In this document: one piece after another, positions 1,831 through 63,545 of the stretch
How positions within the stretch are numbered: position 1 is the stretch's first letter
Layout: every line of letters begins with the position of its first letter
Source: Saururus chinensis
Taxonomy: Eukaryota; Streptophyta; Magnoliopsida; Piperales; Saururaceae
Assembly (NCBI GenBank): GCA_035235625.1
Contig: CP141146.1
Coordinates: 11,278,501 to 11,342,500, forward strand
Direction: 5' to 3'
DNA: 64,000 nucleotides
Notes under the pieces: model-generated
What the model saw: only the letters and a program-made list of their open reading frames with translations
What the model was told of the DNA's origin: nothing
The model's database searches: none
Position numbers and translations under genes: made by a program

Positions 1831-2080
1831 CACTACAAAAAACCATCAACATTGATGCTACAATAGCGACGGTAGTTTCAGCCATCCCTAATTGTGATCA
1901 TCTACGACGGCTAACACTATTAGCTGTTGCTACAGATCATTATCTGCGACGGCTTATGTTAGCTGTCGCTGATGACAAATATAGCCGTCGCTATAGATAA
2001 CTTTTTGCGACGACCAATCTGAATAGTCGTCGTCGTTAAATTATTAGTGACGACCTGATCTAGCCGTTGCTGAGGATTTT
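1831..2080 (+). mobile_element. CACTA-type terminus with GACGGCT-rich subterminal array
   Basis: The stretch starts CACTACAAAAAACC, the hallmark end of plant CACTA (En/Spm) transposons. Short direct and inverted copies of GCGACGGCT and its complement follow up to about 2075. Such subterminal arrays are the binding sites for the TnpA-type protein. No tnp2-type transposase is coded nearby. The matching right end was not identified. Confidence 0.6.
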
Positions 2081-2522
2081 TGCCCCCAAATCTACGCGCG
2101 CTTTCCCTTAACCCCGCCAGTATTTCCCTCCCCTTTGCTTTCCCTTCTCCCCCCACTGTGAGTTTCCTCCCCTTTCCCCTTTCCCCCGGCTAGATGTACC
2201 CCTGCCCTTCCCCTCTCCATCGCCACGATTTCGCCTCCCCCGCTGCTCAATTTCCCCTCTCCCCCTCCTCGATTCCCCCCACCCTCACCCTCTTCATCGC
2301 CGGGTTACCCCTCTCCTCCCTCAGCTCAATTTTCTCCTGCCCATCCCCTCTCCGTCGCCGCGATTTCCCTCCCCCAGCTTCTCTTTTGGAATCTGCGTCT
2401 AGAATCTCCGCCGTAAATCCAGATTCTTGACGCTCGATGTAACGACTGCATCCAGACCCTAAATGGGATCGATGACGAGGTCCGGGCCTCGCCAACTTCC
2501 TCATCGTCCTCCAGCTCTTCTT

Positions 2523-3385
2523 GGGACTATTGAGCTCCGGTGACGAGGTGTCGGCGCTGAGGGTCCTGCAGAAGCAAATTTTGCCATTGCAAGTTGACAA
2601 GCATGGGATTTTGTCGGCCGAGGTTAGGGCGGCAGGGATTTGGTTTTGTCGACTGAGGTTGGGGTGAGATCTGGAGGGGTGCTTCTGCACCCAATTAGGG
2701 GTGCCGGTGAGGAGCCTGGAGCATTTGGTTGAAACCGTGGTAATCATGCAGAGAGATGATTCCATACAGCACAACTCCTCGGATGGGATTTCACTGTATA
2801 TGAGGACCATTGTTGTGGGCAGGAACAACTTCCGACCGAGACCGTGCAGGTTAGTGTGGTGCCCCATTTGCAGTAGCCATTTAGGAGAGTAGAAGAACTT
2901 CACTTCTTTGGTTGCAGTAGTTAAATAATTTCTATATTGTTTTGTCACCATGAGTTTATGTTGAGAGCTTCGAAATTAGAGAAATCTATTAATGAAATGC
3001 GCCACTGATAATGAAACCAATAAGCTTGGTAAGATGATTGTGGGGGCAAAATACCTTTACTTGAGTATATGTTATGAGCTTGATATTGCAAGGCTGAAGG
3101 TTAAGAAGAATATGATAAGTTCGAAATTTTACAAACAAATATACAGATAAGTGAGGATTCCATTGGGCGGACCAGTTATTTGGAGGCTTCAATTTTATTG
3201 ACATTATTAGGAAAGGCTCAGTTTTGTATTGATGGGACTTTTATTTTTCCTTATTTGTTTCTAATAATTATCTGTCTTTTTGCAGATATTGGTAGAACAT
3301 GAGAATGAAGTTTGGTTTGTGCAGTTTTCATATAATGAGAAATACCTTGCTTCTTCTTCTAAGTGATTGCACGGCCATTATCTAG
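2523..3385 (+). pseudogene. Captured WDR26-like fragment (CTLH part and first WD40 repeat)
   Basis: Two exon pieces match the plant WD-repeat protein 26 family, an adaptor of CTLH/GID-type ubiquitin ligases. From 2523 the frame reads LLSSGDEVSALRVLQKQILP, a CTLH-type stretch, then hits a stop. From about 2699 it reads VRSLEHLVETVV and HNSSDGISLY. A 2-base insertion then shifts the frame to EDHCCGQEQLPTETVQ, which ends at a donor (CAG|GTTAGT) at 2849. After an intron the acceptor TTTTTGCAG at 3285 leads into EHENEVWFVQFS and YLASSS. A further 1-base shift and a Trp-to-stop change in the DCTAIIW motif follow. The copy is therefore dead, but the intron is kept, so it was copied from DNA and not from mRNA. 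It begins some 700 bp inside a CACTA-type terminus. Confidence 0.82.
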
Positions 3386-3488
3386 ATGATATTGTTTTGG
3401 ATACATACTATCTTAATAAATAATTGAATCTGCAGTTTAGCATCTAGTTAGTCTGTAAGAAAACTGCAGTTCATGTAATTGGTTTCAG

Positions 3489-3711
3489 ATGTTGTCCTTG
3501 TTGCATGTGGAGCTGCAGCAGATGCTGGCATTCGGTCAGTTTGTGTCACAAACTTCAGGTGTGCGGTTAAAATTATGAAGTTCCTTACTTTTTTCTATTA
3601 AAATGTGCTGATTGAATACATCGCTTTCTCTTTCTATTTTACCGCTGGGATTTTATTTATGTAGAATATGTGATGGCAGCTAGATATCATCATCGTTCTA
3701 TTATTTGGCAG
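3489..3711 (+). pseudogene. Captured L-arabinokinase-like fragment, two exons
   Basis: Exon 3489-3558 follows the acceptor GGTTTCAG and reads VVLVACGAAADAGIRSVCVT, ending NF next to a GT. Exon 3646-3711 reads WDFIYVEYVMAARYHHRSII, then WQ, and ends at CAG|GTAAAT. Both match consecutive parts of the plant L-arabinokinase (ARA1) N-terminal half, the enzyme that salvages free arabinose to arabinose 1-phosphate. The acceptor of the second exon has decayed (ACCGC where AG is expected). The fragment lies 100 bp downstream of the WDR26-like piece in the same direction and with introns, so the two make a chimera of unrelated host genes. It covers only a small part of the enzyme and cannot be functional. 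Confidence 0.85.
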
Positions 3712-4864
3712 GTAAATGTCAACTGGTTTTGCTACAAGTTCTTTTTCTTGACTGTATGAGATCATTAGCTTTTTGTTTATATAATACTTACAATATCATA
3801 TCATCTATAGCGAATGAGACAAGTTACATAAAATGACATAAAACAATGAAGAGTATTTTCATTCCTGACTATGTGTTAGATATACACTTCAACATTTTCT
3901 TGTTTTTAAATATTAATGCATGTTGCACATTGCATTGTGTAATTTGAAAAGAGGGGTTTACAACTAGAGTTTTTTAGATGTCTTATATAGATGGGTGGGC
4001 TTGTGTTTTTATGTTGGTAAAATTGTTACACTTAAATTATTGATTCATTAAATTGAGCCAAAGTTTATGGTTATATTACTTGCAAGTACACAAGTGAATG
4101 TAGTCTTACAAAGTCGAATCTATAAGGATTGCCTTTGTTTGATTATTACAATGATTACAAAATAGGAAGAATAAAGAAAAATTAAGAGGGAAGGTAAGAG
4201 AATATTAAGGTAATGAAAGTGTTAAAATGAAATTCAATAATATAAAACAATAAGACATGAAGGATCATTGTAACATCTAATAATGTTATTCATGTGTCAT
4301 GTTATCTCAGTTAGAATTGAATAAAGATTTTATTTAACCGGACGATATAAACATTAAAAGCAAAAATAAAAATAGGAAAAACTTTGGATAGATAAAGGGT
4401 TAAAAAAATATTTTTTTAAAAGTTCTATTATCAAAACCACAAAAGATCAAGAAAGAGAGCATTCAAGCATCTTATGTATTAAGATAAAAAATAAATAAGA
4501 AGAAGAACAATATTAAATAAACATCACTTCAAATAATTAATACTTACTTGAAATCATTAATAAAATATGAATAAAACTCCATTAAATTGTTACAAATCAC
4601 CTTTAGCCTTAGCAAGACATTACAATAAAAATTAAAACAAAAGCTACAAAAGAATATAAGAAAAATAGGAGAAGAGAATTATAAAAAGGAGGAAGTGATG
4701 CTACTCCCACTTTCACCCATCTTTTTATAGGAGTAAAAGAAGTTGCTTCAAATGAGAAGGCCTAATCATATCTATTAATTGCTTCTTGATTGGTTGCTTC
4801 TTTGTCAATGATTATATTCTAAATTAATCAAATAAATCAAAGATGTTTAATGAAAATGAGATAC
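3712..4864. other. AT-rich stretch between captured exons and gypsy relic
   Basis: No exon-like piece found beyond 3711. From about 4075 the text (TTGCAAGTACACAAGTGAAT, then AAAGTCGAATCTATAAGG) recalls a widespread leader-type segment of plant retrotransposons, but I could not define it. Confidence 0.35.
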
Positions 4865-6210
4865 AATATGTTGTCGAAGGTCTGCATCATTGGGCACCTA
4901 GAGTCGGCCCTTCCATTGGATAAGGTCATCTTGCAAAATGAACAAAGGTAAGTCTAAAGCTGTTGTTAGGAGGCGAGTAGCAACACTTGAGCCGTAGAAT
5001 CATCCACATAGGCCCGACGCACATCGTCTAAAAAGGGACAAGTGGGAAGCGAAAGGGCCATGCAAGAGCTCTCCTAAAACTGGCGTGACAGGGCATATAC
5101 TATGGTGTTCTCGTTGCCCTTTTTATAGACCACCTCATAGTCATAGTCGAGTAGCTTGCTCACTCAACATTGCTACGCAGGGGTAGATACTCGTTGCTCC
5201 AGGAAATACTTAATGGGCTTGTGGTCTGTACAAATTAAGGAACACTGACTAAAGAGGTAGGGTCTCTAGTGAAGGAACACTAACTAAAGAGGTAGGGTTT
5301 CTAGTGAGTGACAACATGGATGATAATGAGCATCTTTTTCTTGTAGGCTGGGAGGGTTAGATTGCACCCAGAGAGCGCCTTGCTGAAGAAGGCAATAGGG
5401 CACTCCTACTAAAAAAGGACAACTCCCAACCCTCCATCGGAAGCATCCATCTCTACCAAGAATGACTTTGTGAAATCTAGGAGGACAAGCACCAGAGTGG
5501 CTGCCAGAGACTGCTTCAATTGCTTGAAAGCTGCCTCTGCCTATGCGGACCAGCTGAAAGCACCCTTCTTCATGAGGGCAGTCAATGGGGTAGTGATTGT
5601 ACCATAGTGTACAATGAAGTGGCAGTAGTAGCCAGTCCAGATGAGAGAACCCCTCAATGCCTTAGTGGAACTAGTCTGTGGCCAAGAGATCCTCCACCTT
5701 GACGGGGTCAATAGAAATACCCTCACCGGAAATGATGTACCCTAAATACTCTACCTGCGAATTTCCAAACAACACTTGGAATGTATCAGAAACAACAAAT
5801 GAGCACGAAGGATGGTAAAGACAGACTAGAGGTGTGCTAGATGTTAGTCCCATGTGGAGTTATAAACCAAAATATCATCAAAGAAGTCCAACATCAAACT
5901 TTGGAAGGTGGATGCGGTGTTAGTTGTCCCGAAAGGTATCATAAGAAATTTGTAATGTCCATCATGCGTGCGAAAGGCCGTCTTGTGAACATCCTTGGGA
6001 TACATACAGATCTAATGATAGCCAAAACGAAGATCCAACTTGCTAAATACACAAGACTTGGCCAGCTCATCCAACAACTCCTCAATCACTGGAATAGGGT
6101 ATTTGCCCTTGACAGTGATGGCATTGAGGGTGCGGTAATCGATGCAAGCACTATCCTTCTTCAAGGCAAGAAGAACAAGTGAGGAGTATGGGTTGGTGCT
6201 AGGCTAAATG
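4865..6210 (-). pseudogene. Ty3/gypsy retrotransposon pol relic (RT, RNase H)
   Basis: Minus-strand conceptual translation in shifting frames gives [19 protein letters not shown], then [10 protein letters not shown], then PFGTTN and FFDDILVYN (the polymerase YVDD-type box). It continues with VEYLGYIISGEGISIDP and GYYCHFIVHYG, then EMDASDGGLGVVL and FLEQRVSTPAQQC of RNase H, and ends with a pre-integrase stretch. Several stops and frameshifts make it inactive. Plant LTR retrotransposon family; the LTRs are not assigned. At 6211 it is cut by a sequence starting TGTAATGTCCCC. Confidence 0.85.
5229..5306. repeat. Two-copy tandem duplication of about 37 bp
   Basis: The sequence AAGGAACACTGACTAAAG with its following 20 bases occurs twice in succession with few differences, inside the gypsy RNase H relic. 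This is one of the lesions in that relic. Confidence 0.6.
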
Positions 6211-6660
6211 TGTAATGTCCCCAATTTTTCTACGATTTTATGTGATTTTCTTGCTATTTTTCTAATCATTTTCTGCGGGATAATGTTAAGCTTTTGCGTA
6301 TTTGTATTTGTGTGTTTGACCTCAGTATTATACCTGTAGAGTCAGGTGTGCGTCTTAGTCGCAGGCCACGGACCTCGACATGTGATTTTGGTACGAATTT
6401 TGGATATACGACACATAAACAGGAGGTTAGCACGTGATGGGGACATAAAAGAAAAAAAAGAGAGTATAAAAGTATGGAATGGACAACCAACACATTTTAG
6501 AAACTTTGAGATGTCCAGAACGTCTAGAAAGAACGAGATTGAAATCAATAACATTTTTGGTCACTCTGCCATGCCTCCTCCATCGTCGGCTTGCCGACAC
6601 AAGTATGTTGGTACTAGATAGGTGATGTGCCTGATGCGAGCACAATCGGTACCTAAGAGT
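6211..6660 (+). mobile_element. Possible LTR start inserted in the gypsy relic
   Basis: The pol relic homology stops exactly where TGTAATGTCCCCAATTTT begins, a TG-start typical of plant Ty3/gypsy LTRs. I could not find its far end or a target duplication, so the right limit is a guess. Confidence 0.3.
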
Positions 6661-8190
6661 TCTACGCAGGGAAAGGGAAGGAAGAGGGAAGAAAGGGAAG
6701 CATAATTGGAGTCTTCTATTGCATAACCCACACCAGGGAGGGAGATGACCCTTTTATGGGGAGTTGCACCCTCCTACATTGGGAAATGTGCCACTAGTGG
6801 GCCCATCTATCCCTTGGTCCATTAGCCCGCATGTCAAAGTTTAATAACCAAATACAAATGCAAATCATCCACTAACATAAGGGAAACTAGCCTAATGTAC
6901 CGAAATAAAAATAATAATGTACTGAAATAAAGATAAATGATATATTGTGTGAACGTGCATAACAAGAGGACCGCTGCCATACCCTCCTTGCTCCTCCATG
7001 AGGTACTAGTCTTTCCCTCTCTCACTGTCTAAATTCCTTTTGGGCCACCGGGAGGGCTATTTTGCCATCATTTGCTGACCTTTCACTAGACTTAGCTTTG
7101 TCCAACCACTAGGATCCCATAGGCATCAACCAAGGCCATTGCCATGCTCTCCCTGCGAGCTGCCAGTACTTTTCCTCGTTTTTTTCTTTTCATTGTTTGG
7201 TTCATTTTTGGAGCTGCTGGAGCACTTCCGGCCATCGGCTAGCCTTCAGATCACCTCTATTTGGTCTGTCATGGCTCAGCGGCAGCGGTGGGCCACCCCT
7301 CCCAGCTCTCTCCCAGCCCAGCTAAACCTCCTCCACCCTCCCCTTCTATTTGCTTCTTTGGTATGACCCAACCCGCCCCATTTTTCTCAATTTTGAGCCA
7401 GAGGCTCTGTTTGTTGGTGGCCGGTTGGGGCTGGTTGGCTTTCATTCAGCCCGCCTCGGCATGGCTAGGGCTAACCTCATCTAGCCTAATTTTATCTCTA
7501 TTGGCCTTGTCGCCTTGTCGGCATTAGTCCACCATGCTCCTACCCCTCCGGTGCTAGATGCACAACTGCTTGCACTATTGGTTTTGGTTGTGAATGACAA
7601 TTGACAATGTTGTCGTCTCCGCTGGCCACCACTAGGGCCTTAGCCCTGTTGCCCTTTTTGGGCCTTGAGCTACCACCATCCAACCCTCTTCCCCTCCCCT
7701 TTGGCCGTGTGTGTAAGTGACTACACATGCATTTCAGGGTTTAGGTGTTGCTTTTGCACCACCTAACCATAGGATGGCTCTGTAATAGATTGAGTTGACC
7801 GCTAAAGCCCTCCACCTCTCTTCCATCCTCGAGCGTCACCCCATGCCTTTTGCCCTTATGTGGGCCCTTGTAGACGCGAAATTGACACAGTTGGGTGTTG
7901 TCCACAACTAATTTCAATGTCTTATGACCAACCAAGTATTTCTCAGCCGCCAGCATACCTTCAGTTAGTACATCCTCAACTTCCGGTTGCACCACCACTT
8001 TTTTGGAACGACCTTTCTCCGGCAAGCCTAGTGTGCCACCGTGGATCGCAGATTTTGCTGCGTTGATTTGTGCCACCCCATTTAGCCGTGATTGCTTCCA
8101 GCGCTTCCTAAACCCTCTGGACAACAACTCTTTTAACTAGGGGAATGCTTTTGGCCACCAACTCCGATACCGTCACAGTCATGTGTTCAC
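6661..8190. other. Unassigned stretch, no recognisable gene
   Basis: GC content is moderate and there are proline-, glycine- and basic-rich chance frames on both strands. One minus frame at 7741-8127 gives 128 residues and is followed in the same frame by a second one at 7540-7728, but neither resembles a family I know. It sits between transposon parts and may be degenerate element sequence. Confidence 0.4.
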
Positions 8191-8321
8191 CATCAAACGT
8201 CATGGATTACGAGGTAGGGGAACTTTGAACTCGTAATTTCATGATAACATACTTTGAATGTGTAGCAGCATGCTAGGATTGTATGATTCAATGTTTTGGA
8301 TGCTAAATAACAATCATTTCT

Positions 8322-8425
8322 CTCTCTTCTCTCTTCTCTCTCCTCTCCCCTTCTCTCTCTCTCTCTCTCCCTCTCCTCTTTTCTCTCTCCTCCCTCTCCT
8401 CTCTTTCTTTGTCTCTCTTTCCCCC
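8322..8425. repeat. CT-rich low-complexity tract
   Basis: Nearly pure pyrimidine (TCTC/CCCT runs) on the plus strand. It forms the inner edge of the CACTA-type module ending at 9653. Confidence 0.9.
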
Positions 8426-8429
8426 TTTT

Positions 8430-9653
8430 TTGACGCTTCCAGTGGAAGCGTCGCAAAATCATTTGTGCGGGTGAATTTCACCCATGAACTCTATTATATT
8501 TACCCCACCTCTTTGTCTGTTGACCACCACCGGTGACCACCCCCCAGCTGATTGCCCCCTGGCGACTGCTTCCCTCCCTCTCTCCCCGGTTCCCCCTCCT
8601 AGCCGACCGACCACCCCCTAGTGACCGCCTCCCGCAAACCATGCCCCTAGCTCTCCCCCCCCCCCCCCCTCCACACACACACACACTCACACTCTTTCCC
8701 CTCCCTCCCGCTTTTGAGGCCGGATTCTAGCGAGGGAGCCGACCCGCCCCTCTTCTATTTCTCAAAGGAGGGGGGGGATCGGGGAGAGAGGGGGCACAAA
8801 TTCTAGAATCTAGCTCCCCACCGAGTCGGCCCCCTATCCTTGGTCCCCCTCTCCTCCCTCCCTCCACGGGTCACCCCCGCTCCTCCCCTGCCCCGAGAGA
8901 GAGAGAGAGGGATGCTAGATTCCGGCTGCCAACCGGAATTCGACCCCCTCTCCCCGGTCACCCCCTCTCCCTAGTCACCCCCAAAAGAGGGGGGGGGACC
9001 TGAGGAGAAACAGAGGGGAGGGGGAGAGGGATGCTGAATTCTGGCTCCCTGTCGGAATTCTGCCCCCTCTCCCAGTCCAGGATGCCAGATTCTCGCTCTT
9101 CGCCGAAATCCTGCCCCCTCTCCCATTCTAACGTATTAGCGACTCTTTCTAAAGCATCGCTAATACATAAATATTTTTTTATTAGTGACACTTTCTAAAG
9201 CATCGCTAATACATAAATATTTTTTTAAAATATATTTTTTATTGGCAGCACTTTTCATAAGTGTTGCTAATAAGCTATTTTCTATTTTTTATAAAATAAT
9301 TTTTATATTAGCGTCGCTAATAATCAATTATTAGCTACGCTTATGACTATGCGTCACTATTAAGTTATTATTTAATTTTTTAAAATATTTTATATATTAG
9401 CAACGCTTAATAAAACATTGCTAATGACCAATTATTAGCGTCACTAATAATTTACTATTAGCGACACTTTTTTATGCAATGCAAAAGTAAAATCATTAGT
9501 GATGCAAAGCTTAGTGATATGCGTCGCTAATGAGTAATAACGACTATAATTTTATTCACGTATTTTGTGATGTTTGGTATGCGTCGCTAATAGGTATTAG
9601 TGAGGCTTAGAGTACTATTAGCGACACTGCTTTTAGTCTTTTTTGTTGTAGTG
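8430..9653 (-). mobile_element. CACTA-type element end with GC-rich block and TTAGCGACG array
   Basis: Read on the minus strand it starts CACTACAACAAAAAAGAC at 9653. About 520 bp of short TTAGCGACGC-type motifs and complements follow (9130-9640), then a GC-rich, C/G-run block (8480-9120). The first 19-20 bases are identical to the end at 62437, so both belong to one family. No transposase frame was found. The end abuts a copia-type LTR at 9654 and may have inserted there. Confidence 0.65.
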
Positions 9654-11112: not shown

Positions 11113-13335
11113 GATGGCTGGAGCTATTGTGGGTGTTGTTGCACAACTGGTAGCCATTATTGTTAAGGAAGAGGTGGAGTTGTTGGGTTGGGTGCGCCAC
11201 GAAGTGCGTGAATTTGAAAGATGTCTAAGAAGCATAAACGCCTTCTTGATGGATGCAGAGTGTATGCAAGAGAGCGGAGAATGAAACAAGTGATAAATTG
11301 GCCTATGACATTGAGGATGTAGTGGACGAGTTCCTACTTCACGCAGGACCAAAAAATGCCTCATGATCAGCCCAGGTTTGTTTGTTGTCCTTATAGATTT
11401 GTCTGCTTTATCAAGAAGTTGAGAGCACAACATCGAATTGGTACAGAAATTAAAAGGATCAAGAGCCGGCTTCCTGGAATTGAAGAGAGGAAAAATATGT
11501 TCGCCACTGCATCTCTAATCAGTGGAGATACCAGCTCCAATGCTTCGTATAACACTCGACGACTGATTCAGCCTTTGTTTACCGAGGATTCAGACATCAT
11601 AGGCATTGAGAAGCCCAAGCATAAGCTGAGAGAGAAATTGCTAAAAGAAGACTCGAAACTTGCAGTGATCTCTGTGTTCAGGATGGGGGGTCTTGGCAAG
11701 ACGAACACTGTTCGGAAAGTCGATGAGAACGAGACGGTGCAGAGAAGATTCAACTGCTTTGCATGGGCTACTAAATCTCAGAGATTTTCCCCAATTATTG
11801 TCTTCAAAAATATATTCGATAGCTTCATGGACATAAAGGGGGAAAATTCCATTGGCATGGATCTCCTAACAAAATCGAGCACATCAAGCAACTAGTCAAA
11901 GATCTCAAGGATTATATGAAGACAAAGAGGTATTTGGTTATTTTAGATGATGTATGCTAAGTTTAATTGTTTCTTATATTTTGGTTCATATCCTGAAGAC
12001 TATGAAGTTAGTAGATTTGAACTTATTCAGCAACGGATTGCTGAAGGTTTTGTAAAGCCAATGAATAAGCAGACCCTCGAAGAATAACTACCTCCAGGAA
12101 CTTGTTCAAAGGAGCTTAGTTGAGGTCGTGGATTTTTATTTTGATGGAAGAATTGGGTATTGCAAGGTTCACGACTTAATGAATTGGCTAATCGGTGAAA
12201 AAGGAAGGAAGAAAATTTCTTTACTTTGGCAAGAGATGACATAGATCCAAATGAGGATGTCCGCCGTCTGTCAGTCGGCATTGGCGACATTGCTCCAACG
12301 GGCAGATAATTCCTAAATTGTTTAGCTTTGGAATGTTGAGAGTGTTGAATCTGAAAGGGGGGAAAATCCAAGTGTTTCCTAGTGAAATTGTGAAGCTTAA
12401 CTTGTGCAAGTTGCAAACTCTCGACCTACGAAGAACGAATGCTACAAAGTTGCCACTGAAATCCTTCATCTACATGCTATTGGCAATTTAGAAGTTATCG
12501 CCTAAAAACTGACAAAATGGTGTGGGGATGCCAACAAGAGTTAGCACATCAAAATGCTTATATTAGTTACACATATTCGGATGGATGGGGGCACAGGGCA
12601 GGCCACAGAGTTGGGGAAACTCACGGAATTGAGAAAGCTAGTCATTACTACAGTGCAATGACAAGATTGGAATGTCATTTGTGATTCCATCACGAAAATG
12701 AGACACATGGAGATCCTCTTTCTCAGAATAAATGAAGGTCATTCGCTATAGACTTCGTGTCAACCCTTTCGCCTACTCTTGAGAGCATAAGGTTCCCCTT
12801 GTGTTGCACAATGGGGACGTGCTTCACTTTGGCATAATCTTTACCTTTCTATATTCCATACCTTTGCAATGAACTTGCTTGGCATGTTACAAAAGGCGAG
12901 CTTTTTCATTGCCTTGAGGTTCTCCACCCCAAATGGAACCCTTTCTAACTTGCAGCACTTGCAAATGCACATCTTAATCAGTTGCGGCATGGCTCCTTTC
13001 CCAATATGCACAAACCTCAAACTCATCTAAGCTCTCAATTATAATTTTTTGAGCCTTAAATGTCATATGGAGGGGATGGCTTTTTGAGGCTCAAGAAATT
13101 ATAATCGAGAGCTTAGATGAGTTGAGGTTTGTGCATATTAGGAAGGAAGCCATGCTACAACTGATTGAGATGCATATTGGCAAGTGTTGCAAGTTAGAAG
13201 GGTTCTATTTGGGGTGGAGAACCCCAAGGCAATGAAAAAGCTCGTCAAGCAAATTCATTGAGAAGGTACTGGATAAATAAGGTGAAGAATATGCTAAAGT
13301 GAAGCACATCCTCATTGTGCAACACAAGTTTTAAA
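11113..13335 (+). pseudogene. CC-NBS-LRR (RPM1/Rx-type) resistance gene, degenerate
   Basis: The intact form would be an intracellular immune receptor. The likely original start is the ATG at 11113 (MAGAIVGVVAQLVAII, Rx-type coiled coil). After a frameshift near 11280 comes the EDVID motif as YDIEDVVDEFLL, then a stop. The P-loop reads VFRMGGLGKTN near 11680-11705 and kinase-2 reads RYLVILDDV near 11930, followed by a stop. The sequence then jumps to FGSYPEDYEV (RNBS-D) and IAEGFVKP, so RNBS-B, RNBS-C and GLPL are deleted. After YLQELVQRSLVEVVDF and VHDLMNW, LRR-like text follows (MLRVLNLKGG, LQTLDLRRTNATKLP). Many stops and shifts rule out function. The end carries an inverted LRR duplication. 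Confidence 0.9.
12790..13335. repeat. Inverted duplication of an LRR segment
   Basis: 12790-13055 is the reverse complement of about 13080-13335 with a short spacer around 13060-13080. In the right arm the plus strand reads LDELRFVHIRKEA, with IGKCCKLEG further on. In the left arm the minus strand reads SLRFVHIGKGAMPQLIKMCI. The arms differ by substitutions and small gaps, so the event is not recent. Confidence 0.8.
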
Positions 13336-27000: not shown

Positions 27001-27054
27001 TTTTCTTTAAAATTAAAATTATAAAATATGCGCTAAAAAAAGTTAACAACGAAG

Positions 27055-27345
27055 AACCAATAGCGACGGCTAAAATACTTATCCGTCGTATTATAACCGT
27101 CGCTATTAGTTATTATCTGCTCAGCCGTCGCTAATAGTAAGTTTTTGCGATCGCTATTATCCATCCTGTACGTGACGGCTGGCTGAAGTCGTCACTGATG
27201 ATCCTATTTGTCTTCGTTTTCGGAGTCTTTTTCACATCCCCGACGGCTAGCCACCGCTGAAATTCCCTGCACGAACAGCTACTGATGAACGATTTAGCCG
27301 TCGGTATTAAATTATTTGCGACGGTCTGAGCCGTCGCAGAAGATA
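27055..27345 (+). mobile_element. CACTA-type subterminal array (GACGGCT class)
   Basis: About ten copies of GCGACGGCT, CCGTCGC and variants in both directions within 290 bp, as in the array at 1831-2080. No CACTA terminus was found at its left edge, so the end is lost or diverged. Confidence 0.5.
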
Positions 27346-28990
27346 AACATCTACTGTCCGATCACCCACCGCTGGCGTTTTCCTGGAATCATCGCCTCCA
27401 GAACCACCTCCATCCTCACAAACCACGACCCCCCTCCCCTCTCATTCTCCCCACCCTCCCCCGGCGAATCCTGCCCTTCTTCCTCAATCCATCTTTCCGA
27501 AATGCCCTCCACTCTCCGGCTGCCGAATGCTTGAGAAGGGGAGAGGCGGAGACCTCTTATCCGTGCAGGACAGAGGAGAAGGGCCCTTTTTTCCTTAACC
27601 GTACCCCAAATCGTCGCCACCCTCTTGATCCAGGCCTTCTCCCTTGTTCTCTCCTCCAAATGCTCTCCACTGACCGTCGACCGCCGATATGAACAGCAGA
27701 GAGGAGGACCCTGTACACAAGCATGACGGAGACGGGGAGATTGCTTGGATTCAAGGGCTACTGTTGACGCACCAGATGTTGGGACGAACATGGAGAAAGG
27801 ATGTAGGATTGCAAGTTGACGGACTTCATCGATTTTTCCAAAGAGCTCTGAGAGGAAGTTCCACTTGCCTTCTTGTATTTTTTTCTTCTTCCCTGTCACC
27901 GGTCTAACCACTCTGCTGTTTCATATCTGCTCAAAGTGACAACTGCTGACCCACTGCCGGGATAACTTCCATGTCCCATATCCAGACCCAGCCTGAGGAT
28001 TCTCTATCTCTGCAGGTGGCATTTGATTCAGATTTCAGAGAAACGAAGGCTGGATTCCGGAGCTTGGATCGGTGAATCATAAAATTGTTGAGATGATTTT
28101 TTCTCATTTTGTTCCATTTTCGTTTTGGTCTGTTTTAATTGATTGTTTTATGCTTTGTCTAAATTGGGATTATTACTCGAAAGAGTTATCGGTAGAGCAA
28201 GATTATCAAAGGCTGGTCCTTTCATGCAGTGTCCTCCAATATGCAGCCCTTTACTGAACCGAGGTTTATCCTGTCTCTGGTTTTTTAATTCAAAATAAAA
28301 TCTTTAAGCTCTGCTTAATGCTACGTTATAATTTGTTGTCTTGCTGTGACTTACGTACTGGCTATAGTTAATTAGTTACTTCTGTTATATGTTATATATA
28401 AAAAACATGGTGTTATATCATGGCTCAATTATCTATTTGTCATATAAAAAGAGGAATTTGTTTCTTCTATGTTTTAATTCGTTTGTTTGTAGTACTATTG
28501 ATTTAAGAATGAAGTAATATGTTGTTTGTAGCAGCCAGGTTGATGGGCTTTAACCTGATAACATATATGCTATCATGCAATTGCTTGGCTTGGACCTTAT
28601 AGGTGGTGTTATAACTGAGACCTATTTAGAGTTCAAATGGAATGTCAATACTGGGCATATTGACTTCTAGGTATCAATGGTTTATCCTTGTGAGCTATAG
28701 GGTTCACATCTCAATACGCAGGTGATGTTTCTCATGATCAACCTGTAGACTCATTAGGAGTGTTGGGCTGTGTTTGAAGCTGTTGCAAATAATATCCTGA
28801 CCTTAGATTGCCAAGAATATATAATGCTGATAATTTCTTTCCTTGAATCTGTACGGGCTTGATATTGCTTGTTAGAGTTAGCTTGGTGAGAAATTCCCAA
28901 CATGTTTGACACTAGGTGTACATATTGAGAAGAAGATTTGTGTCATGATTGGTTCTGCTTATGCCATTATGCTGGAAGATATATTCTCTC
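27346..28990. other. GC-rich block and flanking AT-rich DNA after the CACTA-type array
   Basis: 27350-28060 is GC-rich with weak open frames on both strands, as expected for a captured gene fragment, but I could not identify a source. 28080-28990 is AT-rich and featureless. Two 24-bp copies of GAAGATATATTCTCTCCATC lie at 28976-29022. Confidence 0.35.
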
Positions 28991-29334: not shown

Positions 29335-29715
29335 ATTGTGGTAGTGATGGTGGATTTAGCCATGGTGGTGGAGGTGATAGTAGTAGTAGTAGTAGAAGTG
29401 GTAGTGGTTACGGTGGCAGTGGTGGAAATGATGGTGGTGGCGGCGGTGATGGCAATGGTGGTGTTGGCAGTAGCGGCGGCGACGGTGGAGGCAGTGGCAG
29501 TGATGGTAGCTGTGGCAGTGGTGGTGTTAGTGGTGGCGGTGACAGTAGTGGTGGTGGTAGTTGCGGCGGCGGCGGTGATGGTGGCAGTTATGGCGGTGGC
29601 TGCGACGGTGGTGGTGACGGTGGTGACAGTGGTAGTGGGAGTGGCGGCGATAATGGTGGTAGTGGTGGCAGCGGCGGTGATGGTGGTCGGGGCCGTGGTA
29701 GTAGTGACAACAAGA
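29335..29715. repeat. GGT/AGT/GAT triplet-rich low-complexity tract
   Basis: About 380 bp of imperfect GGTGGTAGT-type triplets. The frame starting near 29326 reads a glycine/serine/aspartate chain ending GRGRGSSDNKT and a stop; the next frame reads almost only Val/Ala/Met. The first could be an exon of a glycine-rich protein, but it has no ATG and no flanking splice site that I trust. Confidence 0.7.
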
Positions 29716-56769: not shown

Positions 56770-58995
56770 TGTAACATCCGAGAATTTTCTAAATTCCCGA
56801 AGTTGACCACGGGAAATTAGGGTGTTGGACCCCTTGAACTTCTTATTTGAATAACTTATTCAATACTTGGAATTGGTGGCTGAAATATATATGGATGGAA
56901 AGTAGATAGTAAGCGCTTCGAAACACCACCAAGAATGCACGAATCAAAGTTCGGATGAGGGAGATACGACCGTTCGAAGTTGAATATATCGTATAGGGCC
57001 CGTTTACCCGAATTGGATGCACGAATTAACCGTTTAAGTCACTATACGGGCCCGATCAATTAGTATTTCGAAATTGTGTTTTTGGGGCCCAATTTGGTTG
57101 CCGAATTGTGGAGGTTTTGGCCCAACTCCTTAGGGATTAAGAACCCTAATCCCTTGCCTGTAACAAGATATAGTTAGGGCTCTTAGGAGGGGGGTTAGCT
57201 TTTGGGGGACGGTTAAGTGAAGGAGGAGGAGCCGTCATTAGAATTTTCCGGTGAGGCGTTGGCGGCGGTGGATCGACGACACCTCGGCCATTGAGGTAGG
57301 ATTCCGAGTCAAGATTAGCATAGGTTTGTAAATTAGAATATAAATCGTATTCTTAATTTACAAGAACAGTTATTTCTGCAATCACTGTTCATGAAGGTTT
57401 TTTTAAGAGTTATTTATTTACTCTCCGACTGTCGGCCAGTTACCGGTTGGCCATCTGCTGACCGCTGGTGGCTGGACCCATTGAGAGAGCGGCTTGCCGG
57501 GCCTGGTGTTGGCCGTGGAGGCCTTGGATTCAGCGGCCTTGGCGGCGGCGGATCGATTGCCATCGGGTCGTCATAGTAGAAAAAAAAGCAGTCGGGCCCC
57601 TGCTTCTCGACCTACGATGGCATCTGGGCACCCGGACTCCCCGTGCGATTGCAGTCCGGTTGATCCAGTCCCTCGCCAAGCCGTGACAAGTGGCCGGCGG
57701 TCGTTTTCGTTGATTTGCAGCAGGACATTAAAAAAAATGGCGCTTTGTCGCCCCGGCCGGCCAACAGTCTGCGGCTAGGCCATGGCTGTCAAAATCACCC
57801 TTGGCCACCACCCTGCCGTGGCAGCCAGGGGCGGCGCCGCCAGAGGCAGAGAAGACGACCGGGACCGGGTTTATATATATAAAAAAAAATAGAAGGATAG
57901 TGAACCGGGTCCGGTTCATGGAGATAAAAAGGTAAAAAAAAATCTAGAAAATTACTCATATATCTAGAGAGGGAATATAGTGTTCTTACCAAGTTTCAAG
58001 TTGAGAAAAAATATTAAAGTATGTGAAATGACCCTTTTACCCCTTGTAGTTAAATTATCGTGTAAAACTACTTACCCGACTTAGGGGCTTCGGTTCAGGG
58101 GCCTAGGAGTGGATTTAAAAATTAGATAAATTTCTAGTAAGATTTTAATATGTACCCTAATTATGGACCAAACCGTGTAGTGAGGAAATATCCCAGTGAG
58201 TGGGTAATTGACTATCTTGCCCCTACGGTTAATCATAAATCGTTAAGTCAACCTAGGTCGGTTCAAGGGGGTTCACGACCCCGTCACACGCCAGGGAAAT
58301 TACACAGTGTCCGTGAAGTCTAGTAGTACCCTTGAGTTCAATTTTGGACCCATTGGATATCAATAAGGCTTTAAACCAAATGACAAAAATACCCCTTTAA
58401 GTGGACCCGCCTACATTCGTGTGAATGGAAGCGTGAGTCGGTTTGAGAGTGGAGCCTTGTGAGAGGTCAATGACTTAAATCAATAGAGGGGCAGTAAAAT
58501 AACCAGAATGACCCAAGGGAGGGTATCATACCCTAGGTGGTAAAATTACCGTAATGCCCTTAGGGGTAATATTTTCTATTTCTGTCGAAATAGATAACCT
58601 AGTTAATCAAGAGTTAGGGTACCCTATAAATGACTTCAAAACGAAGAGGTGTGACCAGCAAGTGACATGAAGACCTTATTAGATCACAGTGTCATGGGAA
58701 ACAAGGGGAACACCCCTAATTTTTAGGGTTTAAAGTAGCGTATTACTCGTGTTTGCAACCCTGTACATCGATCAATTAGAGTATTATATACGCAATTCGC
58801 GTGACACGTTAGAGTTGTTTACACTCTTGGGCTTGGATTCACTGAGCCCTGACTCTGCAAATGAGTGTAACGGGCCTCCGTTTATTATTTATGCACTTGT
58901 GTGACTACATATTATATATGTTGATTATTCTGATGCTTGCATTTATTATTGTTATGTTAAGTTATATCAGTAACTTAACGTTAATAAAGACTAAT
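56770..58995 (+). repeat. Repeat family R copy, 5' part starting TGTAACATCC
   Basis: It starts TGTAACATCCGAGAATTTTC directly at the edge of the MULE relic. A GC-rich patch at 57240-57860 has only chance frames. 58021-58990 is repeated in inverted form at 60726-61690. The ends and non-coding nature suit a long LTR. Confidence 0.7.
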
Positions 58996-59004
58996 CAAGA
59001 GATT

Positions 59005-59397
59005 TAATATGCAGTCACACAAGTGCATAAATAATAAATGGAGGCCCGTTGTACTCATTTGCAGAGCCAGGGCTCAGTGAATCCAAACCCGAGAGTGTAA
59101 AAACCTCTAACATATCACGTGGATTCATATATAATACTCTAGTTGATCAATGTACATGGTTGCAGACACATATAATATGTTGTCTTAAACCCTAAAAATT
59201 TAGGTTTTCCCCTTGTTTCCCGTGACACTGTGACCTGACAAGGTCTTCGTGTCACTTACTGGTCACACCTCTTCGTTTTGATGTCATTTATAGGGTACCC
59301 TAACTCTTGATTAACTAAGTTATCCGTTTTGACAGAAACAGAAAATATTGCCCCTAAGGGCATTAGGGTAATTTTACCACCTATGGTAGGAATTTTT
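59005..59397 (-). repeat. Short inverted copy of 58545-58990
   Basis: Reverse complement of the end of the preceding copy, with shared text such as GAGGCCCGTTGTACTCATTT and GCCAGGGCTCAGTGAATCCA. It forms a palindrome with its arms meeting near 58960-59005. Confidence 0.8.
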
Positions 59398-61690
59398 TTT
59401 TTATTAAATACAAAACAAACCATTTGATTAAATATCTAGGCCATGATAGGTTCACAAATACGGATATCAAATCATATGATATTATTTAACATCTTAAAAT
59501 TCATAAAGAGCAACTCATCAATCTAAGTACAAGTCCATCATCCGTCTGAAAATTCACAACTAAGTTGACTCTCACGCTAGTGAAACACTTACATACCAAA
59601 GTTGCAGAAACACAAAAACTTCATCTTGTGCTCGCCTGTCTTGGTCTCACTTGTCGTCGTCTGAAAAATCTACAACCAGCCAAACCAAACAACCACAACA
59701 ACAACAACAGAACCTCTCTATCTTCAGGAGAATAACTTCTAAAGAACAAAAGGTTTAATTAATAGTTTTTGGATCGGGCCAACATCACCCGATGTTAGTT
59801 GCCTACGTACTCATCAGACAACATCTCCAATGTTTCCAACAAGATCAGATCCATACGTAGTTCTGCCTAGAAACTATTTTATCCTAAGAAGCATAGCATC
59901 ACGCATGTAATGCTTATGTATTTTTAACTAACCTACATTTTAGTAAGTCCTTTAATAGTTCCACTTGTCTAATTAACGAGCAATAACAAACAATCTAATT
60001 AATTATCTGACATCCCTTGTTCGATAATTAATATTATCAAATCTGAAACTCATAGATGACTCGCCCCTTAAGAAATTTCCAAACATAGTACTCCAACCAT
60101 GGAGTAGACTGCTTAACAATAGCTTGACCCAAATCCCTAGGGCTCTCAATAGCCTGCCACGAATATGGAGAAGAGGATCCCAATTGTGCTCATGGACACA
60201 GATTGGCGAGAAGCACAAGCCTTCCATGATGCTCATATAACTCCGCTTTTCGTACGTACTAAATAGTCCTGGGAAGACTTGCGGGAGACGCACGGTAAAG
60301 ACCCTCTAGTCAATACCCAAACCGTTGTAGCGATAAAGAAGCATATCGCAATCTCCACCATTCCCCAACTCTGGGGAAAATGTCTTTTAAGACATTACCA
60401 ATGAATCCATATAAGCCTTATGTCTTTATGACCATTGACTCCCCCAAAACATCTGAAACTTAGACTAAATTATTTTTATCCAATCAATTATTGCCCAACC
60501 ATTGGGTCCTCTTCACCTTCTGAATCAGCCCAACAAATAGCTCATCGACTAAGCTATGACTCAAAGAACATCCCATAACCACCCTCGGTTCATTAACCAA
60601 GGTAAACTTCTATGTCAGGGCCCCGTTCACTCCATGAACTAGTCCCAACCTTAAAGAGGGTATTTTAGTCATTATCTTGATTAGGTGTTCTCCTCACAAT
60701 CCAACGACAACCAAAATTTCTTGATTAGTCTTTATTAACCTTAAGTTACTGATATAACTTAACATAACAATAATAAATGCAAGCATCAGAATAATCAACA
60801 TATATAATATGTAGTCACACAAGTGCATAAATAATAAACGGAGGCCCGTTGCACTCATTTGTAGAGCCAGGGCTCAGTGAATCCAAGCCCAAGAGTGTAA
60901 ACAACTCTAACGCGTCACGCGAATTCCGTATATAATACTCTAATTGATTGATGTACAGGGTTGCAGACACGTGTAATACGCTACCTTAAACCCTAAAAAT
61001 TAGGGGTTTTCCCCTTGTTTCCCATGACACTGTGATCTAACAAGGTCTTCGTGTCACTTGCTGGTCACACCTCTTCGTTTTGAAGTCATTTATAGGGTAC
61101 CCTAACTCTTGATTAACTAGGTTGTTCGTTTCGACAGAAATAGAAAATATTACCCCTAAGGGCATTACTGTAATTTTACTAACTAGGGTATGATACCCTC
61201 CCTTGGGTCATTCTGGTTATTTTACTGCCCCTCTATTGATTTAGGGTTATTGACCTCTCACAAGGCTCAACTCTCAAACCGACTCACGCTTCCATTCACA
61301 CGAATGTAGGCGGGTCCACTTAAAGGGGTATTTTTGTCATTTGGTTTAAAGCCTTATTGATATCCAATGGGTCCAAAATTGAACTCAAGGGTACTACTGG
61401 ACTTCACGGACACTGTGTAATTTCCCTGGCGTGTGACGGGGTCGTGAACCCCCTTGAACCGACCTAGGTTGACTTAACAGTTTATGATTAACCCTAGGGG
61501 CAAGATAATCAATTACCCACTCACTGGGATATTTCCTCACTACACAGTTTGGTCCATAATTAGGGTACTTATTAAAATCTTACTGAAAATTTATCTAATT
61601 TTTAAATCCACTCCTAGGCTACTGAACCAAAGCCCTTAAGTCAGGTAAGTGGTTTTCACACGATAATTTGGCTACACGAAATTGTAAAAA
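59398..61690 (-). repeat. Repeat family R copy, inverted
   Basis: Read on the minus strand, 61690-60726 matches 58021-58990 and 60725-59398 matches about 35040-36360. It therefore joins the two halves that are separate in other copies. It lacks the first part (TGTAACATCC to about 58020) and the last 40 bp. Confidence 0.8.
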
Positions 61691-62436: not shown

Positions 62437-63545
62437 CACTACAACAAAAAAGACTATTAGCGAAGCATTTAAGTGTCGCTAATAGTCCCATAAGCGTCAC
62501 TAATGACTTTAGCAACTCATAAAACACGTCGCCATAAGCATCGAAAAAAGTCCAATTGCTCTTGCCTATTAGTGATGCTTAACACAAAGCATTGCTAATA
62601 GTGTCACATTAGCGACGCTTATTTATGCATCGCTAATAATTTTCCTTTAGCGACGCATAAAACAACGTCCCTAATAGTAAATTATTAGCGATGCATAATT
62701 CTTAGCTTCGCTAATGATCAGTTATTAGCGACATTATCCTATACATCACTAATATAAAAAATAATTTAAAAATAAATTTAAAATAACTTATTAGCCACGT
62801 ATAATTAGACACGTCACTAATAAATCATTATTAGCCACATTTTTTTATGTGTCGCTAATTTAATAAAGTTTTTTTAAAAAAATTACTTATTCAAAGCACC
62901 GTTAATCATAAAATATATTTAAAAAATTCGTGTATTAGTAACGCTTTAAAAAGTGCCGCTACTACATTGAAAAAAATAAAAACGCTTTAGCTACGCTTAT
63001 GAAATTTTTTTGGAGGGCCCCCCCCCCCCCCTCCCCCACAGAAAATCAGAGGAGGGAGGGAAGGAGGGGGGCAGTGCAGGGGGAAGAGGGAGGAAGGGGG
63101 TGGGGGATCGGAGGATAGTAGGGAGCCGGAGCAAGGTGATGACCAAAGGGGGCTGGCGGATCGGAGGAAGGTGGAATTGGGGACTAGAGGAGGGACGAAT
63201 AGGAGGGAGGAGGGGGGTGGGGGAGCTTTATAAGCTGGCAAAATTTCGTCCGCGTAGGCTATTAGCCTTTCGTATGAAGAGCGTCTCTAATAGCCTTTAT
63301 ATTGTTTTTAAAAATAAATATTATTAGCGATGATCGTACCAAGCATCGCTATTGGTATTAGTATTGGCGACATATATCAAATGCATCGCTACTACATACG
63401 TTAGTAGCGACGCATACGTGTATACATCGCTAATATATTAAGTAGTAGGGACGCATAGTTTTATGCATTGCTACTACCCAGGACTACTAGCGACACATAC
63501 TATTATGCGGCGCTAATATATTTTTTTATTTTTTAAAAATAATTT
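62437..63545 (+). mobile_element. CACTA-type element end with subterminal arrays
   Basis: It starts CACTACAACAAAAAAGAC. TTAGCGACGC-type arrays follow at 62450-62990 and 63245-63540, with a G/C-run block at 63015-63230 between. The first 19-20 bases equal those of the end at 9653. The element continues past the window, so its other end and any transposase are not visible. Confidence 0.7.

Follow-up and report, generated by a model that had tools for sequence, protein, structure and literature searches.

A decayed, one-ended Pack-CACTA remnant, in which two separately packaged gene pieces were joined and the right part was then lost, is probably the best explanation of the structure found near the start of the window. 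By the window we mean the whole stretch of 64,000 nucleotides of Saururus chinensis that was analysed (C7:11278501-11342500), and the genome searched is that of the same plant (516,460,831 bases in 11 contigs). The two pieces, one from a WDR26-type gene and one from an L-arabinokinase (ARA1) gene, both lie in sense orientation behind a CACTA-type left end. The features are collected in Table 1. Other loci of the genome that were compared are numbered with the prefix L.

Table 1. Features of the element remnant and of the sequence that follows it (positions in the window).
Feature	Position	Strand	Basis and remarks
CACTA-type left end, "family A"	1831..2080	+	Terminus CACTACAAAAAACC and subterminal repeats
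C-rich leader of the element family	2081..2385	+	Ten loci with leader; not found at the WDR26 parent
WDR26-type gene piece	2386..3465	+	78.6% to C6:35093028-35094160; alignments; tblastn
WDR26/ARA1 junction zone	3462..3475	+	Homology switches from one parent to the other
ARA1 (L-arabinokinase) piece	3470..4023	+	88.5% to C10:27637994-27638543; alignment; tblastn
Repeat beginning TGTTACAC, LTR-like	4024..4860		Truncates the ARA1 piece; broken off near 4832-4860
Apparent remains of a different retrotransposon (RT-like piece; limits by eye)	4863..6210	-	RVT_1, E=0.003

The initial annotation placed a CACTA-type end at 1831, and this is borne out in several ways. The window reads CACTACAAAAAACC at that position, which is a CACTA-type terminus. 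When the genome was searched with 1831-2470 as the query, eight of the 23 non-self rows started at query base 1 or 2, so that 1831 is a real repeat terminus. The motifs GACGG, CCGTC, GCGAC and GTCGC number 10 per 250 bp from 1801, where 20 first-order Markov shuffles of the window gave maxima of 2-5 per 250 bp; the same density is reached at two more spots in the window, near 27051 and 52501. Two features that characterise Pack-CACTA elements are thereby seen, namely the terminal inverted repeat of the left end at 1831 and the subterminal repeats, with 10 motifs per 250 bp against a shuffle maximum of 5. A search for mates of the family A left end, allowing up to 2 mismatches, gave no convincing pair in L021, L024, L026, L027, L028, L029 or L030.

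There are other CACTA ends in the window. A second, diverged A-like end lies at 27029-27400 (58% alike over 264 aligned bases), and is followed by a C-rich stretch of its own and by sequence that looks spliced. A different CACTA family, with the terminus CACTACAACAAAAAA and TTAGCGACGC-like subterminal repeats, has ends at 9133-9653 and 62437-63500, of which one is a right end and one a left end. A single element running from 1831 to 9653 was considered and rejected: the end at 9653 is of the CACTACAACAAAAAA type (family B) with other subterminal repeats, and the flanking triplets are unlike, with TCG directly before 1831 and ATG directly after 9653.

The C-rich leader described earlier also exists, with 51% C and 10% G over 2085-2385. 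It is present in L028, L030, L037, L038, L039, L040, L041, L044, L045 and L046. It does not appear to be the 5' sequence of the WDR26 gene, since it was not found in the 10 kb around the WDR26 parent (L020). Nor does it appear to be the 5' sequence of a LysM gene. In two relatives, L044 and L045, the leader precedes a piece of a LysM gene (PF01476, E about 5e-11) and there is no WDR26, but the probable LysM gene places on C1, read as intact genes, match from query base 204 on only, that is, behind the leader. The leader therefore appears to be a property of the element family, and not part of the WDR26 or LysM genes.

The WDR26-like exons with an intron, originally placed at 2523-3385, were confirmed and belong to a wider piece. 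The alignment with the parent puts the start of the homology at about 2380-2386 and its end at about 3465. The piece consists of an exon part to about 2850, an intron (about 2851-3285), an exon (about 3286-3392) and the start of the next intron. A tblastn search with the WDR26 protein gave scores of 47.4, 32.0 and 48.1 bits, the best of 200 shuffles of the query reaching 31.6. The identity of both pieces was also tested against the DNA of genes in the same genome, which provides support independent of the WDR26 and ARA1 protein queries. The WDR26-type parent on C6 is apparently intact as far as it was matched: four blocks, covering residues 56-556 of the query, are free of stops.

Relative to this parent, the WDR26 exons of the window carry several indels whose lengths are not multiples of three, and TAG replaces a parental TGG. 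Eight open frames within 2417-3756 were searched against Pfam: seven gave no family and the eighth matched WD40 with E=0.0003, below the family cut-off. There was no transposase family among these eight frames, the right part of the element being lost. In a PDB sequence search with the WD40 frame, a chain of WD repeat-containing protein 26 came twelfth (E=0.0072) among the best 60 of 76 matches (E<=10), with other WD40 proteins ahead of it. The same search gave no match for the WDR26 frame 2668-2889, nor for one of the two ARA1 exon frames.

The ARA1-like exons with introns are likewise confirmed, and here too the piece (about 3470-4023) is wider than the 3489-3711 first given. It has two exons (to about 3556, and about 3647-3712) plus introns. 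The tblastn scores with the ARA1 protein were 51.2 and 47.0 bits, and the best of 200 shuffles was 28.9. The parent on C10 looks intact as far as matched, the comparison being with the N-terminal part: residues 7-363 of the query matched in 13 rows, of which 12 are free of stops and one weak row has one stop. The decayed splice sites that had been reported are seen at the second exon, where the acceptor AG of the parent reads CG in the window, so that the acceptor is lost. In its present state, the window copy can encode neither protein piece.

The initial annotation had suggested a search for intact parents, with comparison across exons and introns, and had named parents lying side by side elsewhere as an observation that would count against it. 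Both parents were found, with 78.6% DNA identity for WDR26 and 88.5% for ARA1, introns included in each case. They lie on different contigs, C6 and C10, and a copied pair of neighbouring genes is thus excluded. Copied host gene pieces with parents elsewhere are a further characteristic of Pack-CACTA elements.

The left half of the structure is found repeatedly. Besides the parent and the window, WDR26 pieces are present at at least eight loci (L021, L027, L028, L029, L030, L037, L038 and L040). The window, L030, L037, L038 and L040 have the join between leader and WDR26 in common, if small deletions at that point are disregarded. In L028 the end and leader lie 2.7 kb ahead of the WDR26 piece, and in L021, L027 and L029 the piece occurs with no detected leader, L029 having a related end 0.4 kb upstream of it. 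The sequence behind WDR26 varies with the locus. In L029 it is a piece of a glutamate synthase gene (PF01645, E=2.2e-15), which L027 shares at 88.9% DNA identity. In L037, L038 and L040 it is one common gene piece, the frame of which in L038 has no Pfam family; L038 additionally contains a piece of a chlorophyll-binding gene (PF00504, E=8.6e-7 and 3.5e-5). In L040 one frame matches a methyltransferase weakly (E=0.11, below the cut-off). Across the element family, the gene pieces that lie in sense come from WDR26, ARA1, glutamate synthase, chlorophyll-binding and LysM genes.

The family around the window copy is more interesting than that copy itself, which is ordinary decay. The member at L038 (1001-1519, minus strand; C8:32.34 Mb) has the family A left end, the leader and the WDR26 exon piece, and a 173-codon open frame runs from the WDR26 piece into an exon of another gene. 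The same stretch in L037 and L040 has stops in every frame, and the tail of the L038 frame may be intron. This frame is the one sign that some member of the family could make a fusion protein.

The ARA1 piece also has relatives, at at least two loci besides the parent and the window (L024 and L026, among the best 40 of 1600 candidates). Both of them leave the parental ARA1 sequence at one and the same base and then continue into a common sequence that has similar subterminal motifs. The CACTA terminus of this shared sequence, read inward, is CACTACAAAAAAATTGGG in L024 and, in decayed form, CACCACAAAAAAATTGGG in L026. In a genome search with this right end, the last base was reached by 22 of the 44 non-self rows. 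This L024-type right end agrees with the A-type left end in the first 12 bases but not beyond them. The 10-kb loci of L024 and L026 yielded no WDR26 piece, and the ARA1 piece of the window starts at another parent base than that of either locus.

One intron stretch of the ARA1 parent (L022 7624-7957) is missing from the L024 copy. This gap was not taken at face value as a deletion, because a portion of it (about 7650-7746) is repeated in L031 (16-116), which lies some 10 kb upstream of the window, and it may instead be an insertion in the parent. It is possibly a transposon that entered the parental intron after the capture.

The left module and the module of ARA1 with a right end both recur in the genome; the fusion itself was not met a second time, as far as searched. 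A search of the genome for a second copy of the WDR26-ARA1 fusion found none (14 rows, 10 candidates), and no other relative has both pieces within the locus stretches that were compared. The rows of both end searches, inspected by eye, include no A-type left end with an L024-type right end in one orientation less than 20 kb apart; the nearest such pair, a partial one on C8, is separated by about 24 kb. Further copies of the chimera with shared ends, which had been proposed as a check, were thus not encountered (all 10 candidates were scored). The lack of both a second copy and a right end, which had been named as evidence against the proposal, is literally what is found, with the ARA1 piece cut at 4024. 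Of the transduplicated chimera, what stands is the two unrelated, intron-bearing pieces from C6 and C10 behind a CACTA left terminus; what is not supported is a single captured unit, since no other place among the 10 candidates has both pieces and no right end was recognised.

Behind ARA1 in the window, neither an A-type nor an L024-type right end was recognised, because another repeat cuts the ARA1 piece at 4024. At this boundary, 31 of 42 genome rows begin at query 2512-2527, corresponding to window 4011-4026 (best 40 of 1600 candidates). The point at which the window copy of the repeat is broken off comes from a comparison of five copies. A BLAST search of the window (E 1e-5) found neither the sequence of the L024 right end nor the final 86 bp of the ARA1 piece. 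The RVT_1 match in the apparent retrotransposon remains that follow is below the family cut-off and comes from one of the three frames searched.

Several other repeats were noted in the window. The stretch 12798-13328 is 80% alike to itself read in reverse complement, over 549 aligned bases; it adjoins a decayed gene read as NBS-LRR type and could form a long hairpin RNA. Inverted copies at 58045-59005 and 60714-61676 are 95.5% identical over 963 bp, and are apparently younger than most of the repeats around them. At 29340-29710 there is a GGTGGT-rich low-complexity array.

The noncoding divergence from the parents is similar for the two pieces: K80 distances are 0.127 (423 sites) and 0.194 (76 sites) for the WDR26 introns, and 0.091 (83 sites) and 0.135 (302 sites) for the ARA1 introns. 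The exons differ strongly, with 0.23 (469 sites, first exon) and 0.103 (116 sites) for WDR26, and 0.054 (77 sites) and 0.072 (74 sites) for ARA1. For these reasons, the attempt to order the two captures by divergence was abandoned. An older capture could account for the strong divergence of the first WDR26 exon, as could more rapid decay of an exon rich in CpG. Methylation-like decay is visible in the WDR26 piece, where C>T/G>A changes affect 24 of 99 CpG sites against 43 of 398 other C/G sites. This CpG excess is absent from the ARA1 piece (0 of 10 CpG sites, 22 of 180 others). A comparison of four ARA1 sequences is star-like, the three possible groupings being supported by 3, 4 and 1 sites; the descent shared by the ARA1 pieces of the window, L024 and L026, and hence their origin in the same capture, is something that we infer.

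On the basis of these observations, the evidence favours the joining of two separately packaged pieces over a side-by-side capture. The left and right halves each occur without the other, which makes capture in one event less simple, and the finding that WDR26 is followed by different sequences at different loci also counts for the joining of two elements. The left half (CACTA end, C-rich leader and WDR26 piece) would be a module that this CACTA lineage carries elsewhere too, while the ARA1 piece would come from a second packaging event, whose other descendants adjoin a CACTA right end. We infer that the two were joined by the fusion of neighbouring Pack-CACTA-type elements, each with its gene piece. 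The fusion would later have decayed, giving the frameshifts, the stop and the lost splice acceptor, and a retrotransposon-type repeat together with loss of sequence would have removed the right part. The similar noncoding divergence of the two pieces and the CpG decay of WDR26 also count for this explanation. What speaks against it is that the right end is missing from the window, and the hybrid is therefore never seen whole. The lack of a locus pairing the A-type left end with the L024-type right end among the rows and loci compared, the star-like ARA1 comparison, the far greater divergence of the first WDR26 exon than of the ARA1 exons, and the absence of a CpG excess from ARA1 count against it too. 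A closely overlapping account, in which two adjacent CACTA insertions were fused in place by a later deletion, drops only the last step, movement of the fusion as a unit. It is a serious possibility: it agrees with the absence of a second fusion copy from the genome and of a recognised right end from the window, and no specific point stands against it, the sequence fitting it equally well.

Joining of two packaged pieces also has to be set against repeated capture, in which an A-lineage element already carrying WDR26 took ARA1 directly from the C10 gene, independently of L024 and L026. The star-like relationships of ARA1, the different parent base at which the window piece starts, and the several other 3' neighbours of WDR26 pieces all count for it; but it needs the same small region of ARA1 to have been captured at least twice, and L024 and L026 show that this region was already mobile, so that we consider it unlikely. 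Helitron and Mutator-like elements also carry adjacent gene pieces. Helitrons have a 3' hairpin and a CTRR end and insert between A and T, and Pack-MULEs have long terminal inverted repeats and a 9-bp duplication. Helitrons and Pack-MULEs are both named in section 7 of PMC13317346, but it is very improbable that an element of either kind made the capture and that the CACTA end is incidental, given that the end or leader recurs with the WDR26 piece in L030, L037, L038 and L040, and that ARA1 recurs ahead of a CACTA right end. The exons are short, which might suggest chance similarity or ordinary local pseudogenes; the probability of this is negligible, since DNA identities of 78.6% and 88.5% extend through the introns to genes on other contigs.

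The window copy most likely has no present function, and would be a silent remnant containing gene pieces. For the family a bolder reading may be offered, doubtful as it is: the left module (CACTA end, leader and often the WDR26 exon piece) might act as a portable cassette of promoter plus first exon. This idea comes from the presence of at least five gene types, all in sense behind the left end, and from the open frame of L038. Transcription from the leader, if it occurs, would make the family a system of exon shuffling that favours sense fusions. Because a single left module has various sequences behind it, the order of the joining steps and any bias toward sense fusions would be measurable. 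In the open-licence literature searched, no paper combined CACTA with arabinokinase or CACTA with WDR26.

In the CACTA-like elements of Chenopodium a domain called TAD is present, which we take to be the transposase-associated domain. These elements (PMC8978399) resemble the window element in having host gene fragments in their 5' region and subterminal repeats; their fragments lie upstream of the TAD domain, whereas no TAD was seen in the window frames tested. CACTA elements with several unrelated gene pieces are already known. Tgm-Express1 of soybean (Zabala and Vodkin 2007, PMC1947982) carries five unrelated host gene fragments with exons and introns kept, and is in this respect like the window element; it is, however, inserted in a gene, and chimeric transcripts have been demonstrated there, whereas the window element is broken and known from sequence alone. 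The closest comparison is with Pack-CACTA and other Pack-TYPE elements, for which the merging of two adjacent packed elements is reported as the way in which new DNA is acquired (Gisby and Catoni 2022, PMC8903248); in this model the 3' end of one element and the 5' end of the other are lost (PMC8903248 section 9; PMC13317346 section 7). The detailed example given there, groups AB and BB in PMC8903248, is Pack-Mariner, with similar CACTA cases mentioned. The window element differs from those described in PMC8903248 in being decayed, single-copy where searched, and lacking a right end and a target-site duplication; it resembles them in combining DNA transposon ends with host gene pieces. It provides a natural case in which the left and right partners of a two-gene fusion are each found alone in the same genome, and partners found separately are what the neighbour-fusion model of Pack-TYPE shuffling predicts.
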